Shown here: positions 30,542 through 38,334 of the stretch, one piece after another
Layout: each line of letters begins with the position of its first letter
How positions within the stretch are numbered: position 1 is the first letter of the stretch
Source of the DNA: Candidatus Desulfofervidus auxilii
Lineage (GTDB): Bacteria > Desulfobacterota > Desulfofervidia > Desulfofervidales > Desulfofervidaceae
Length of the DNA stretch: 64,000 nt
Direction of reading: 5' to 3'
Assembly: GCA_030262725.1 (NCBI GenBank)
Contig: JAJSZS010000008.1
Coordinates: 1-64,000 of the forward strand
Made by a program: the position numbers and the translations under genes
Notes under the pieces: generated by a model
The model's input: only the letters and a program-made list of their open reading frames with translations
Database searches by the model: none
Told to the model about the DNA's origin: nothing

Positions 30542-33500
30542 TTATTTCTCAATCCAAAATTGGGTTATATTAGGCAAGAAAACAGGTTTTTGTTTTACTT
30601 CTACTACCTCTCCAGTAGAAAGCTGCACGTAGCTTTTTAATTCCTTGCCTATCTGTTTTGTTACAATGCTTTCGCCAAGAGCAGGTGCACCTTTGCCAAT
30701 ATGAACATGGGATTGTATTTTATTACTTTTGAATGCAACATTCAAATCAAGCAATATAGCAGGTTCTTTATAGGGTATGCCAGCTTTATAATAAATAGAA
30801 TACAAATATGTATCTCCACCATAACCGCAAATGTCATTATTGGGTAGAAAAGAAGTAAACATTGCTAGCTGACCAACAACAACTGGTTTTGAAATAACTC
30901 TCTCAGCTGGACTTGAGGTAGATAGATTTATTTTCCAACCGTTATAATTGGTCAAGATATAATTAACACAACCATCCCAATCAGTGCCTGTATAACCACC
31001 ACAACCACTTACAGTGACATTGACTACTTCTGTTACTATCTTTTCTGTAGCCATGTTGGTGGTTGTTGAATCAGGATAATCATCAGATGTGCCCCAAATA
31101 TTATCTTCTCCAGGAGAACACGGCCCAATAACCCCACCTTCGCAGGCACAAAGATAGGATTTGGCAGTGGCAGAAACCTGAACATTTGTTGCATCAAAAA
31201 TGTCAGTTACAGTTGAGCAAGTTCCATATTCTTTATTTTGTGAGTCCCAACAAGTGTCTTTTATTCCATAAATATACTGTTGAGTATTATCTGTTTTATC
31301 AGTTTGACCAAAATATTTCCCTGTACCAAAGAAACACCAAAGATTGCCTTGTTCATCAAAAGTCAATTCTGGTGCAGCAGTAACAGGTGCAGCAGCATTA
31401 TGGAGTGTAGTTATCTGCCAACTTGCTACATTTGTGCTTTCATTTGTTAAAATCCTAAGCATTTTTCCGGTAAGTGTATTACCTGACTTCTCTACTGTAC
31501 CACAATAGATAGCTTCTACATTATAATCATTATCTGGATCAACTGCTACACAATCACCAACATAGGTATTACTGCCTATCTGTAATTTTCCAACCAAACT
31601 TCCATCTCTTAAATCTATAACATAAATATAACCTGTACTTGGTGGTGTATCCCCATTATAATCTGTTGGACCAGAACCTAAGACTACATACCAATGACCA
31701 TTTTCATCTTCATCACCAATCCTGACAATGGCTGGATAAGATGTAGTGAAGTTTAAATCAGGATCAGAAAATTCCCAAAGTAATGATGGTGATTCTGGAT
31801 CAGTAATATCTAAAGCAAAAATAGAGGGTAGACCTACCCTCTTGCCCTTAACTCAGGGTGCATTACTGGGTGGATTAGGACTGCCACCAAAACGCATCTC
31901 ACCGATCAAAATAGTTCGCCAACTATTTTTACTTTTAGCAGCTGTAGCAGTTCCGTTAATGCTTGCATCAAAAAGCATTGGTCTTTGATCTACATAGTAG
32001 ATATGACAATAATCTGGATAAGCTAAATATTTTAAATAAGGTAAAGCATTCATAGGTATGTATGCCCAAAGTTCCTTTGCTACATCTGTTCCTTCAAGTT
32101 CGGCTTTAAGACAAGGTTCAGAAGTTGTTGGGTTTTTGTCATTTACTTTACCTAAATAAAAGCAATGTAACATCCCATCATTTGCTCCAACAAAGAGATA
32201 ATCTTTGTGCTTATAAATACAGCTACCACCTGAACAATCTGAATCTTGAGTACAAGTCTGTGATGGATTATTAGAACATACTTTTTGAGAATAAGTATCT
32301 TGGATAAAACTCTCATAAGTATTATCCTGATATAAGATATGGTAAAGATTTAATGGAAAATGTGATAATATTCTGGGTGTGGAATAAACAATATCTCCTA
32401 ATTTCCAAATATGAGTTTCTCCTCCTATAGTTAATTCCCGATTTCTATGCCCACTACTATTGCATGTGCCTTCATCACTATCCAAACATACATCTACATC
32501 TATTCCTCGGACATAATTTATAATATTTTCTGCATCGTCATCATCATAAGCTCTGAGATAACGTTTCAAAGTAGAAGCATTGCTTGTTGTAAAATTGCCA
32601 CTCAATAAAGATGAACTATCTGTTGAAGTATAGATAGTCCTATCTCCAGCATCCCTTTGCCATAATGCTTTCCCTGCATCCCAAAGAGTTTTTAAATTAG
32701 ACAATGTTTTTGTCTCATCAGGTGAACAAGGAAATGTTACTTTACCATTACAATCTGAACTATATAGATGAATCTTTGTCTCATTATCTTCAAGGAAAAA
32801 TTTCATAACTTTATCTTCATCTAAGATTAATTGCTTATCATTGGTAGTGTTTTCTCTTATCTGCCCATATGGATCAATCCAAAATCCTTTTAAGTGACCA
32901 ACCCAAGATAACTTTTCATTATTTTCACTTGTAAAAGAAGGTAAAAAATATGCCTGACAAAAATTACCGCTACCTCTTACTGAAGTGGAAAGCATAGAGA
33001 CCGCAGTTCCAGAAGAGGCGCGTTTGAGAATATCGGCAAACACTTTAGAAAGCTTCTCTTCTAATTTTAAAGGATTAGCTACAAAAAAATAGGTATCAGG
33101 TTTTCCATCACCATCTTTGTCCCATTCATTAGATAAGTCAGGTTTGTTATTATTGTTTATATCTTCAAAACCACCCCATTTTGCTGCATACCAAAGAGGG
33201 TTTTTTAAAAGGGTAGCTGCTGAAGAGCCAGAGATGGTAAATATTTTTTCCCAAGTTAAAGGCATACTAGCAACCACTGAAGGTGTATCGCCATCTCCAG
33301 GTGGAGGGGCAGTATCACTGTCTTTTACTGGTAAATAAAGCCCATCTTCACTGGTTCCAGAAATGACAAATCCCAAAACCTGGTCTATACATCCAGCAGC
33401 ATAGTCTGAACTTAAGGTAATTTTGAGCTGATTAGCAGGCAAGGGGGGATTACAGGCATCTCCCACACAATATTCATATTTTACAACGCTATCCATATCA

Positions 33501-35512
33501 TGGTCTGCTCCTTGTTCAACATCTTCAAAATTTATTCTAAACTTTCCATAAGTGGGTGTAATCTCTTCGACATAAAAATCTACAATCTGATTGGAAGGAC
33601 AGTAAGCATTAGAAGAACAATTACTGATAATTAAACCTCTATCGCTATCATAAGTTAAATTGCATTTTTGCGCGCATGAATTATATACACTAAGACATCC
33701 ACTAACAGATTTCCCCACAGGAACTAGGGTAACGGTATGGTCGCCCACTTGAATCTTTATTTCAGGCACAGGAGAAGAAAGGGCTACACTATAGGTAGTT
33801 ACATTTTCTGCCTTTGTGGGGTCAGCAAAATTATTTTTAAAATCCGTATGTCCATAATAAGCAAGAGCTGCTGAGTAATAACTACCTTGCTTAGTGGGCT
33901 CCTCAGGGCATAAGCCTCTAACCTTACTCAAGTCTGAGACATTTTTAGCAGAACAAATAAAATCATATACACCATTACTTTCTCCTATAAAATAGTCTGC
34001 CCCTGAAATACCTTCTTCATCTCCTATGGTTTTGGCTAATTCAGCTACATCTAAGTCAGAAAGGTCACCTGAATAACTTTCAAAAGCACTCCCTGGCACA
34101 GTATCAGAATCATAACTGGGATTGATATCACTGATAATTACCATGAAAGGTTTAGAACACCAGGGGAACAATTCAGGAAGCTGAAGGGTATTTCCGGCTT
34201 TTTTAATCCCCCAGTCAGGTTTAGGGAGTAGTAATCCTGTATCACTAGAAGAACTATAAGTAAATTCTGATGTAGGACTTCCCTTACCTGCAAAATACCT
34301 CAAAGTTTCGTAAATCATTTCTGCAATGGGATTGCCCCACATGCGGCACTCTCCTTCATTTAATGGATGGGTAGTGATCCACCCACACGTATAGCTTCCT
34401 TGATAGCTATAATCAGAATATCTAAATCCCACTGTTTTTAACCTGTTTAAAGTGAGTATAATATTACCTTCAGTATTTTCCGAAGTTTTAAATATACCTG
34501 TATTGGGATTTATTTCATCTGAAATAGACCATATATTCTTTCTTAAGACACCCCCACTTAAGTTTTTTGTGTAAGAACCAGTTAAGAGTCCAAAATACAT
34601 TTGAGCCATATCTACACAGACTCCCTCATCGCTTTTGCAATCACTATCTGTATTACACGACTTAAAGCTCTTTGAACATACCTTTGTTCCATTTCCCTCA
34701 CCAAACTTTTGCAAAAGCCCAATGGGTTTATAGTTCCCATTTGGATATTCTTTGCAGTTTGGTTCAACACCCACAGATGGATCACAAACCTTTACTCTAA
34801 CATAATATTCACCATCTGGTGTTCCTAGACTGTTATCACAAACTGGTCTTTCTTTTGATGCCCACTCCCATATTCTATTAGACCTATTAAGTAACACCCT
34901 TATTTTGTGTGGCTCGCCTTCACTGGTAGAAGTTACACAGAAAAGATGCCTTTTACCCGCTGTGGGGGAGTCAAAAGGAGTAAGTAACCTGGTGTCATTA
35001 CCAAAATATTCCTTTCCCCAGCTATGGGCATCTTGAGGGATATAAACTCCTTCTAAAACTGTTTCTGATGAAGAATCCGTGCTTCTATATCCTCCATAAA
35101 GCACTTTTCTTAAAACGTCCATCCTAGACATAGAAAGCCAGTTTAAAAAATTTCCGCTCCATTCATCTTCTCCACCACAATATTTATCAGATGTGATTCT
35201 GGTAGGAACAAACTTAGCAGTAGCTCCAGAACCTTCATATTTGTAACATTTATAAGGGTCAAAGTATCCATAATAATCTATGGAGTGCTTGTATCCTACA
35301 TCAAGCAGTCCATCTTCATCCAAATCAGAGGCATCATTATAAGCCTCATAATAGAGTTTATGGTCTCTTCCCATAACAAGCATTACCAGAGGAGGACCTT
35401 GGGCTGAGATAAAAGGAGGCACAGCGCAATAATTATCCATAGTTTGAGTGAAGGCTAATCTTCCTATTAATGATGTAAAACTTATAAGGAAAATAAATAA
35501 TATTTTTTTCAT
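30542..35512 (-). CDS. pilY1: PilY1-type type IV pilus tip protein, predicted selenoprotein (UGA at 31853-31855)
   Basis: 1656 codons if UGA codon 1220 is read as selenocysteine. Signal peptide 1-22. Residues about 30-150 carry the PilY1 N-terminal signature (PPLVMLVMGRDHKLYYEAY, then NFLNWLSMSRMDVLRKVLYGG). A calcium-binding-like DINNNNKPDLSNEWDKDGDG lies near 795, and a C-terminal beta-propeller (YLFVGANDGMLHCFYLG) follows. Cys-rich inserts (CNTDSDC, CTQDSDC) recur. The UGA sits in NAP-U-VKGKRVGLPSIFALDITDPE, just before the conserved ALDITDPE strand. The downstream frame stays open to 30542 and continues the propeller with no frameshift. A SECIS-like hairpin follows at the right distance. 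PilY1 promotes pilus assembly and adhesion. If UGA were a stop, the C-terminal third would be lost. The start overlaps the 104-aa gene by 4 bp. Confidence 0.85.
31823..31855 (-). promoter_or_regulatory. SECIS-like selenocysteine insertion element after the PilY1 UGA
   Basis: Counting from the base after UGA, nt 11-18 (AGAGGGUA) pair with nt 23-30 (UACCCUCU), an 8-bp perfect stem closing GGUC. Read as a hexaloop it is AGGUCU at nt 18-23. In E. coli fdhF the SECIS loop is also AGGUCU at nt 18-23 after the UGA. The G in the loop falls 19 nt after the UGA, inside the known bacterial range. The bulged U of fdhF is absent. Confidence 0.8.
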
Positions 35513-35823
35513 CTTTTATACCTCTCTATTAAAATTTCAGTAACTAAATTGTCTATAACCTTTATAGTAACCCAATCTCCAATTTTAATATCTCTTAAAG
35601 ATGCAGGATTTTCAAAAAATGCCCCATTTACCTCCTTGTGAATGGCTACTCTACAATCTTGAGCAATATAAAAATCTTCTCCCGAAACATTTATATAGTC
35701 ATAGTTTTTAGAAATAGCATTTACTTTACCATTAAAATAATAATGGCTGCGTGTAAATCCTGTATGTGTTGGAAAAAACAACATAATTCCTAAACAGATT
35801 ATAAATAGCCAATTTTTTCTCAT
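35509..35823 (-). CDS. Small exported protein of the PilY1 operon
   Basis: 104 aa. Hydrophobic N-terminus (LFIICLGIMLFFPTHTGF), then a small beta-rich domain: YYFNGKVNAISKNYDYINVS, IKIGDWVTIKVIDN, TEILIERYKR. This looks like a periplasmic OB-like or DUF5666-type fold. A GAGGAGG site precedes it, and it overlaps PilY1 by 4 bp. Its position suggests a pilus-assembly accessory role. Not recognised as a named family. Confidence 0.7.
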   Translation of the reverse strand: MRKNWLFIICLGIMLFFPTHTGFTRSHYYFNGKVNAISKNYDYINVSGEDFYIAQDCRVAIHKEVNGAFFENPASLRDIKIGDWVTIKVIDNLVTEILIERYKR

Positions 35824-35886
35824 GTTTTCCTCCTCTATTCTTCTTTATTACTCCATTTATTGTGAAAAAATCGTGAAGTGTATGTG

Positions 35887-36330
35887 TTAATATCCTTTTA
35901 CATACATAATATATAAATCTGCTTGACTATTGTGTTTGGTAGCCTGAGAATGGACAAGGTAATAAATACCAACACCAGCTACTCCTGTATAAGCTCCTGA
36001 AATAGGAGGGAAAACTGGCACTCCTTTAAATCCAGCAAGAGGTTTCCAAAATACTTGCCATATTTCATAAAAATCATTAGGATCGCCAGGATCACCAGTT
36101 TGAGGGTTATTATTGATTAAATTTTGTAGTTGTCCATATGTTTTTGTTTCTAAATCTATTATTGCTTCTTCTATTCCTCCCTGTGCCATTTGAAGAGCTA
36201 TATTGTAGTTTTTAGCACTACCATATGTTTGATAGCCTCTTGTGCATAGATATGTAATAAGACCTATCAAAATTATTCCCATAATCATTACCATTAGTAC
36301 TGTTAATAAAGCTATCCCTTTGTTATTCAT
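35887..36330 (-). CDS. pilX: Minor pilin PilX-like
   Basis: 147 aa. N-terminus MNNKGIALLTVLMVMIMGI is a class III-type prepilin-like signal with a short basic leader and a hydrophobic helix (residues 5-30). Residues 30-60 (YGSAKNYNIALQMAQGGIEEAI) are typical of PilX proteins. The globular remainder is short and Gly/Pro-rich. It is last in the minor pilin cassette. The fourth of four overlapping or abutting genes upstream of pilY1, it probably primes pilus assembly together with PilY1. Confidence 0.75.
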   Translation of the reverse strand: MNNKGIALLTVLMVMIMGIILIGLITYLCTRGYQTYGSAKNYNIALQMAQGGIEEAIIDLETKTYGQLQNLINNNPQTGDPGDPNDFYEIWQVFWKPLAGFKGVPVFPPISGAYTGVAGVGIYYLVHSQATKHNSQADLYIMYVKGY

Positions 36331-37352
36331 TATTGTAACTCCCTTAAAGGTATTTCTAAGGTAATTGTGCGCCAGCGATAATGGCGTAATTCACTATTAA
36401 GGTTAACAATGTTATCTGCTGTACTTATTGTGGCGTTTGGATAATTATAAGAAGGATCTCTTTTTCCATACTGTTTTACAATAAAAATACGCACAAGTCT
36501 AAGTCGATTTTTTAATGTAACTGGAGCTTCTCCAGAAATATCATCTTCCCATGTAACATTACCTGCAGGATCTATAAGCCCAAATTGAACTTGGAAATCT
36601 AATACTCCATCTAAAATAGGCATAGATGAACCATAAACACGACATAATGAGCATATATTATTTGCATTACAACTGCATAAACGATAGCCTGTAAAAGTAT
36701 TTAAAAAATAATCTTGAAAAGTATTAATGTTATTTCCAGCATCAGTTTTACTGATGCCTCCAAGACTAAAAGCAAATACAGTTTTTATATCAGCTATAAA
36801 ACCTGTAGCATTATTTAAACTGAGATTATTTCCTGCTACGCCTTGGATTGTATATATGTTTCCAAAAAGTTCTTTTGTTTCAGTATTTAAAAAGACAATT
36901 TTATCGTTGCTTTCAAACTGGGGGAAGTTAGGATAACTAGGAGCAGGAGTTTCTTGGTTTGAGGTGATAGTGACAGTTGTATCTGTAGCATTGATATAGC
37001 TTGTATTATATCCCCATTTCATATAATTATCAGCAGCAGAAGAAATAGAAGCTCCTTTAATTATTAATTCATCAGAATTATTTTGGCCATTATTATTGTT
37101 TGAACCTATAGGCACAAAGTAGTCTGTAGCTACAATTCTTACAATAACAGGGACTCCTAGTCCTGCCATGGCTACATCTCTTAATAATATAGATTCAGAT
37201 ACAATGCCTGTTTGTGTAGTCCTTGTTTTTGCGGCTTCTTGATAAGAGCGTTTAGTTAGGTTAGACAAAAATGTTAATGTAGCTGAAGTGAGGATAATAA
37301 ATATTACCATTATTACTAAAAGCTCCGCCAATGTCATACCTCTGTTTTGCAT
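36330..37352 (-). CDS. pilW: Minor pilin PilW-like
   Basis: 340 aa. N-terminus MQNRGMTLAELLVIMVIFIIL carries a prepilin cleavage pattern (G-M-T-L-x-E) and a hydrophobic helix; Glu at mature position 5 is present. The body is long and low in Cys except for CNANNICSLC near residue 230. Size fits PilW. Overlaps pilX by 1 bp and pilV by 1 bp, so the cassette is one tightly packed operon. Proposed to be part of the pilus-initiation complex with PilX, PilV and PilY1. Confidence 0.78.
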   Translation of the reverse strand: MQNRGMTLAELLVIMVIFIILTSATLTFLSNLTKRSYQEAAKTRTTQTGIVSESILLRDVAMAGLGVPVIVRIVATDYFVPIGSNNNNGQNNSDELIIKGASISSAADNYMKWGYNTSYINATDTTVTITSNQETPAPSYPNFPQFESNDKIVFLNTETKELFGNIYTIQGVAGNNLSLNNATGFIADIKTVFAFSLGGISKTDAGNNINTFQDYFLNTFTGYRLCSCNANNICSLCRVYGSSMPILDGVLDFQVQFGLIDPAGNVTWEDDISGEAPVTLKNRLRLVRIFIVKQYGKRDPSYNYPNATISTADNIVNLNSELRHYRWRTITLEIPLRELQ

Positions 37353-37900
37353 TATGGTTGCCTCTTTATTGTTTCTAAAGTCACAAAATGAGGTGTACTA
37401 GTGTTGTTTCCTTCAAACCAATAAACAACAACAACTATATTTTTCCAATCAGCTGCAGTATCTATTCCCCAAATTTTATAATAAGTCTTAGAAGAAACTC
37501 TTGTGATAGGAGTAATTGTATTATAAGTTGTGATAGCTAAAGCAGTACTTGGATGGTCTATACCATTTGTTGCATCATTTGCGTCTGCTATATCTGCATT
37601 TCCATCATATTGATCATTTCCATTGTCTAACAAGTAAACATTACCATTACCATTTGGGTCAGGATGTGGATTATTTATAAAGGTATTGTTGTTTACAATA
37701 TCACTCAAAAGTTCATCATTATAAGGCAAATTTGTTAGATAATTTATTGTTGCTTCAGCAATTTGAATAGCAGTTTTTTTATGCTCTAAATAGGCATTAT
37801 GTTTTATGATAGTTACAGTAGCATGAGTTAATGCTATTAATATGATTCCAAGTATAGTTAAAGCTATCATTACTTCTACAAGCGTAAATCCTTTTTTCAT
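37352..37900 (-). CDS. pilV: Minor pilin PilV-like
   Basis: 182 aa. MKKGFTLVEVMIALTILGIIL is a classical type IV prepilin leader with the G-F-T-L-x-E site and hydrophobic helix. The remainder has Asn/Asp-rich stretches and a YFKIW/VVVVYW-like strand near the end. The start overlaps fimT by 4 bp. Expected cleavage and N-methylation by PilD (not in this window). Confidence 0.82.
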   Translation of the reverse strand: MKKGFTLVEVMIALTILGIILIALTHATVTIIKHNAYLEHKKTAIQIAEATINYLTNLPYNDELLSDIVNNNTFINNPHPDPNGNGNVYLLDNGNDQYDGNADIADANDATNGIDHPSTALAITTYNTITPITRVSSKTYYKIWGIDTAADWKNIVVVVYWFEGNNTSTPHFVTLETIKRQP

Positions 37901-38334
37901 TGTATCCTTATCCTAAATATTGACACTGAAATTTGTTTTGTTTTTCCATTATTATGCGTTAAAGTAAGTGTGAATGACTGATCTGGTGTGCCCTTGCGAG
38001 TGAAAAGGACTCTATTGTTAGCAGGGTATCCAGAAAGAGTGATGTTATTAAGATTTCTTGTTTCCAATTCTTCTCCTGTATCGTATGCATTGTTATCATT
38101 TTGGTCTTCAAAAATAGTATAGCTATTTGGCACAAACTGGATGCCAAATCTGTGTGCATTACCAAGAGATTTTTGCCTTGCCCATTCTAAATCAGAATAT
38201 AATTGGTTTGTTGCATCAGTTAGGTTATAATTTGCTACAAGATGTTTAAAGCCGATAGTGCCAAGACCTAATAATATAACCAAAATTCCTATAACTACTA
38301 AGAGCTCAGTTAAAGTTACACCTTTAACTCCCAT
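37897..38334 (-). CDS. fimT: Minor pilin FimT/GspH-like
   Basis: 145 aa. MGVKGVTLTELLVVIGILVIL has a prepilin cleavage site (G-V-T-L-x-E) and helix. Residues 40-60 (LYSDLEWARQKSLGNAHRFG) match the FimT/GspH N-terminal region. FGIQFVPNSY and the strand-rich end fit the fold. First gene of the minor pilin cassette; it abuts the histidine kinase stop codon directly (overlap 1 bp). Confidence 0.82.
   Translation of the reverse strand: MGVKGVTLTELLVVIGILVILLGLGTIGFKHLVANYNLTDATNQLYSDLEWARQKSLGNAHRFGIQFVPNSYTIFEDQNDNNAYDTGEELETRNLNNITLSGYPANNRVLFTRKGTPDQSFTLTLTHNNGKTKQISVSIFRIRIQ

Follow-up and report, generated by a model that had tools for sequence, protein, structure and literature searches.

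Background

The closest described relatives of the gene reported here are the PilY1/PilC tip proteins, among them PilY1 of P. aeruginosa (PDB 3HX6) and PilY1.3 of M. xanthus, which are alike with its product in propeller fold, in a Ca-type acidic motif and in having minor pilins as gene neighbours. The product of the present pilY1 differs from them in a predicted selenocysteine (Sec) in a propeller loop and in a long, Cys-rich N-terminal half. In the literature searched, no PilY1/PilC protein with Sec has been described. In P. aeruginosa PilY1 one thiol, Cys152 of the N-terminal vWA domain, tunes force and surface sensing (PMC8806160), whereas the Sec predicted here lies in the C-terminal propeller.

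On the side of Sec insertion, the point of comparison is the SECIS element of E. coli fdhF, whose product is cytoplasmic and unrelated to the PilY1 protein, the latter being predicted to be exported. Envelope proteins with predicted Sec are known, some of them linked to electron transfer, namely the ExtKL cytochrome, the MtrB/PioB-type barrel GSU2204 and the TonB receptor FCYXU (PMC13188914); unlike the pilY1 product, none of these is a pilus component or adhesin. The preliminary description of this DNA knew of no PilY1 selenoprotein, and the literature searched, although incomplete, agrees: PilY1 is not among the 119 prokaryotic selenoprotein families of a 2026 catalogue (PMC13188914), and it was absent as a selenoprotein from a 2022 review, from further selenoproteome papers and from a search for 'selenoprotein' with 'PilY1'. 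In NCBIfam, no model for a Sec-bearing PilY1 was matched. We judge the present pilY1 to represent a real, new selenoprotein family, which would be the first in a pilus within the literature searched.

HotSeep-1 is a partner organism that lives attached to methane-eating archaea, and the Desulfofervidaceae host of the present locus is a heat-loving sulfate reducer. Expression data indicate that a PilY1 of HotSeep-1 might matter in its partnership with ANME-1 (PMC10553843).

The pilY1 gene and its product

The window, the whole stretch of 64,000 nucleotides that was analysed, belongs to a genome of 2,268,002 bases (G000). It was compared with G001, an independent assembly in one contig (2,540,211 bases) from another genus, taken as HotSeep-1 ('Ca. 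Desulfofervidus auxilii'), and with G002 and G003, which represent two other genera of the family. The pilY1 frame runs on the minus strand from 35512 to 30542 and encodes 1656 residues, with one internal stop and a TAA end. When the frame was re-read, the single in-frame UGA placed at 31853-31855 (minus strand) by the preliminary description was recovered as residue 1220. The claim that the frame then stays open for 436 codons and continues the propeller (30545..31852, minus strand, comprising the remaining propeller and the C-terminus) was likewise borne out. The dN/dS of the codons downstream of the UGA was 0.17 against HotSeep-1 and 0.11-0.21 against G002 and G003, and purifying selection on them is similar to that on the codons ahead of the UGA. 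A stretch in this part, DPDNDYNVEA, fits the DxDxDY motif of the family.

The UGA could be a true stop, produced by a nonsense mutation or by splitting of the gene, in which case the cell would make a truncated PilY1 and the downstream part would be a pseudogene or separately translated. The standard code does read pilY1 as two ORFs, and UGA is the ordinary stop of 7 of the 41 long ORFs in the window. Such a reading is at odds with the purifying selection past the UGA, with the lack of any ATG, GTG or TTG among the first 85 codons after it, which are conserved, and with a cut that would take away over half of the propeller. It is also opposed by the conservation in a second genus described below, and overall we regard a true stop as very improbable.

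The protein matched the Pfam family T4P_PilY1 (PF05567, E = 1e-15). The profile of its PilY1 domain matched the sequence of the P. aeruginosa PilY1 C-terminal domain (3HX6) with E = 1.7e-63, and a predicted model of the domain (pLDDT 86) matched the fold of 3HX6 with E = 6e-22. In the model, strands 383-390 and 415-420 (numbering of the modelled domain) flank the loop that holds Sec1220, and model confidence in this loop is moderate (pLDDT about 71-73). Since 3HX6 has a tight turn at this place, the Sec would sit in an insertion that is absent from P. aeruginosa.

Directly upstream of pilY1, and also on the minus strand, is a small conserved ORF of 104 aa with a hydrophobic N-terminus (35509..35823; 83% identical in HotSeep-1). 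It is followed at 35887..38334 (minus strand) by four minor-pilin-like genes, identified from ORFs and Pfam as PilX-like, PilW-like, PilV-like and GspH/FimU-like. The Pfam matches were to PilW (below the cut-off), N_methyl and GspH; the PilX-like ORF had no Pfam match and is named by position. With a C-terminal beta-propeller and a gene beside minor pilins, the pilY1 product is of the PilY1/PilC type. Its location at the pilus tip we infer from the M. xanthus system (PMC7541494).

The hairpin downstream of the UGA

A putative bacterial SECIS hairpin was found by folding at nt 11-30 past the UGA (31823..31842, minus strand), with AGGUCU in the apical loop. Nucleotides 11-17 pair with nt 24-30 to give 7 bp around AGGUCU at nt 18-23; if the inner A-U is counted, the stem has 8 bp around the loop GGUC. 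The position and loop in the preliminary description were therefore right, and its perfect 8-bp stem closes GGUC and not AGGUCU, which 7 bp enclose. Its further statement that loop sequence and position equal those of fdhF was verified in E. coli records, in which AGGTCT begins at nt 18 past the TGA exactly as it does in pilY1. The bulged U of the fdhF element is absent from the corresponding position of the pilY1 hairpin.

Folding of the 46-nt stretch gave an MFE of -15.8 kcal/mol (z = -2.3), a value at or below which only 0.3% of the window's TGAs fell. The hairpin falls within the published bSECIS limits (loop of 3-9 nt on a stem of 4-16 bp, G in the first two positions of the loop, a distance of 16-37 nt from the UGA and MFE <= -7.5; PMC13188914).

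The preliminary description had also held that such a hairpin would not accompany a random UGA. Of the 1,971 TGA triplets of the window, 11 were followed at the register of the pilY1 hairpin by a stem of 6 bp or more, and AGGTCT together with the stem occurred at that register after one only, the pilY1 UGA (0.006 expected if independent). When only a stem of 6 bp or more, G in the first two positions of the loop and a distance of 16-37 nt were required, as a loose bSECIS-like test, 14% of the window's TGAs passed, so a hairpin on its own would be weak evidence. When the whole genome was scanned for TGA-N17-AGGTCT as a way of finding SECIS elements, there was no enrichment over a reversed control and the scan was uninformative; an Rfam search at the pilY1 hairpin returned only chance-level matches.

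Conservation of the UGA and hairpin in relatives

A TGA inside the pilY1 match was sought in 59 relatives and then in 395 genomes of the phylum. It was present only in G000 and in HotSeep-1, at the same codon, and none of the other sampled genomes of the phylum had one; the Sec trait is carried by these two sequences only. The preliminary description had reasoned that homologues with neither Cys nor Sec at this position would speak against Sec, and the HotSeep-1 homologue has a UGA there. Sequencing error at the UGA was considered and rejected, as the occurrence of the same codon and loop in a second genus makes an error or a random nonsense mutation very unlikely; the identical UGA and hairpin in another genus likewise argue against the true stop discussed above. 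Under the standard code, the pilY1 gene model of HotSeep-1, itself a syntrophic partner of archaea that oxidise methane, would be broken in two.

The HotSeep-1 hairpin keeps the AGGUCU loop and differs in one pair of the stem, which is U-G there and C-G in G000. Eight of the codons from +3 to +11 specify the same residue in both genomes, and six of these are identical. The six (+4 to +8 and +10) are every same-residue codon within the hairpin, while elsewhere in the domain 289 of 541 (53%) are identical.

In G002 and G003 the Sec1220 codon is replaced by a Thr codon (ACA and ACT, respectively), with no such hairpin after it. At residue 1228 the two Sec proteins have Leu and the two Thr homologues have Tyr, and other homologues with the same motif mostly have Tyr or Phe; Leu1228 in the Sec proteins is explained by the loop, whose GGU CUA requires it. 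A tree of the domain paired the two Sec proteins (94/64) and placed them as sister to the two Thr proteins, within a fully supported four-member Desulfofervidaceae clade, so a single origin of the trait suffices. An exchange of Sec with Thr between sister lineages, instead of the exchange of Sec with Cys, would be unusual.

Selenocysteine machinery

The preliminary description proposed a search for Sec genes in the organism, and all were found: G000 encodes selA, selB, selD and a tRNASec with a UCA anticodon. Its SelD has an in-frame UGA of its own, as does a formate-dehydrogenase-like gene. Behind each of these UGAs is a hairpin with a GG-type loop, at 20 nt for selD and at 23 nt for the formate-dehydrogenase-like gene.

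Taken with the frame, the hairpin and its conservation, these genes suggest that the product of pilY1 is a full-length tip/priming protein of type IV pili with Sec at codon 1220, inserted by the bacterial Sec system of the cell itself (probability about 0.88). For the insertion of Sec at the UGA taken by itself, our confidence is higher still. SelA would turn Ser-tRNASec(UCA) into Sec-tRNASec. SelB, bound to the hairpin whose AGGUCU begins 18 nt past the UGA, would bring this tRNA to the codon so that Sec enters at position 1220. The full-length PilY1 would then be exported and, if the M. xanthus system is a guide, would cap the pilus together with minor pilins (PMC7541494).

Decoding of the UGA as another amino acid was also weighed, for example as Cys by a selC*-type tRNACys (UCA) with SelB*, or by near-cognate read-through. 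Systems of the selC*/selB* kind with opal anticodons occur in Desulfobacterales (PMC7609411), and in each of the relatives G002, G003 and G004 a second SelB lies next to a selC*-like tRNA. In G000 itself only one SelB scored above the family cut-off, and the one tRNASec-like gene besides tRNASer is a standard tRNASec; in HotSeep-1 the selC*-like tRNA has the anticodon GCA and would not read UGA. Decoding as another amino acid therefore has an even slimmer chance than a true stop, and insertion of Sec is strongly preferred.

The second SelB proteins are divergent (35-40% identical to the canonical one), and the loci that hold them with a second tRNASec-like gene are L065 3794-5840 (G003), L066 5646-7726 (G002) and L067 6503-8536 (G004). 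ARAGORN assigned the anticodon GCA (Cys) to the second tRNASec-like gene of G004 and to an orphan copy in HotSeep-1, and the second genes of G003 and G002 look alike. These SelB and tRNA pairs of Desulfofervidaceae resemble the selC*/selB* tRNACys systems (PMC7609411).

HotSeep-1 has selB, tRNASec(UCA), a UGA-containing selD and the UGA-containing pilY1, and a search for selA in its genome gave no match. SepSecS was searched for as a stand-in for the absent selA and none was found.

The formate-dehydrogenase-like gene of G000 (L122, around G000:C1:98656-99417) has its in-frame TGA within QARIUHSATVAAL, followed by a 9-bp hairpin. It is common to G002, G003 and G004 and had no match in HotSeep-1 at the cut-off used.

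Possible role of Sec1220

The preliminary description looked to Cys at the UGA position of relatives for support. The nearest two homologues have Thr, and when the Sec was masked, no more than 3 of 38 aligned homologues had Cys opposite Sec1220. Pairings of C opposite U from the first tblastn were discarded because the query had been written with C, and the masked alignment gave no Cys column. Of 36 distant PilY1 homologues, 21 carried Cys in the same loop, 17 of them with a motif such as CVKTP. Given the Thr in the closest relatives, residue 1220 is not essential to the fold, and the homologues do not establish a Sec/Cys exchange. Cysteines corresponding to C1421 and C1432 are common among homologues and are lacking in the Thr homologues, which makes these two residues candidate partners of Sec1220.

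Sec1220 would be placed on an exposed loop between two propeller strands, where it might act outside the cytoplasm. More speculatively, its side chain would most likely be a redox-sensitive group (a selenenylsulfide or an oxidisable selenol) or a soft-metal ligand, and we rate a redox or metal role at slightly less than an even chance. It could act somewhat like Cys152 of P. aeruginosa PilY1.

Alternatively, Sec may be inserted and its side chain have no selected function; the UGA, if of use, would then provide selenium-dependent control of full-length PilY1. The Thr of the sister lineage fits this account, no conserved partner Cys was identified, and truncation would inactivate the domain. 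Its difficulty is that retention of the hairpin has cost residue 1228 its usual aromatic and that the UGA has been kept in two genera despite single-base routes to sense codons. We consider a functionless side chain unlikely, and less probable than a redox or metal role.

Because a stop at the UGA removes 436 residues, over half of the propeller, the full-length tip protein would depend on selenium supply. Sec on the pilus tip complex might thus combine redox or soft-metal chemistry with a selenium-dependent full-length adhesin, and in HotSeep-1 selenium might bear on syntrophic contact through the pilus; this wider picture is doubtful.

A minor observation concerns the mosaic structure of pilY1. 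From 32315 to 35877 of the window, including the small upstream ORF, DNA identity to HotSeep-1 was ~86-90%, and dS in the N-terminal part of pilY1 was 0.42; the remainder of the gene was ~68% identical, with dS of 1.5-1.8. The N-terminal half of PilY1 in G002 and G003 is very different. This pattern suggests that the tip domain has recently been exchanged between genera.
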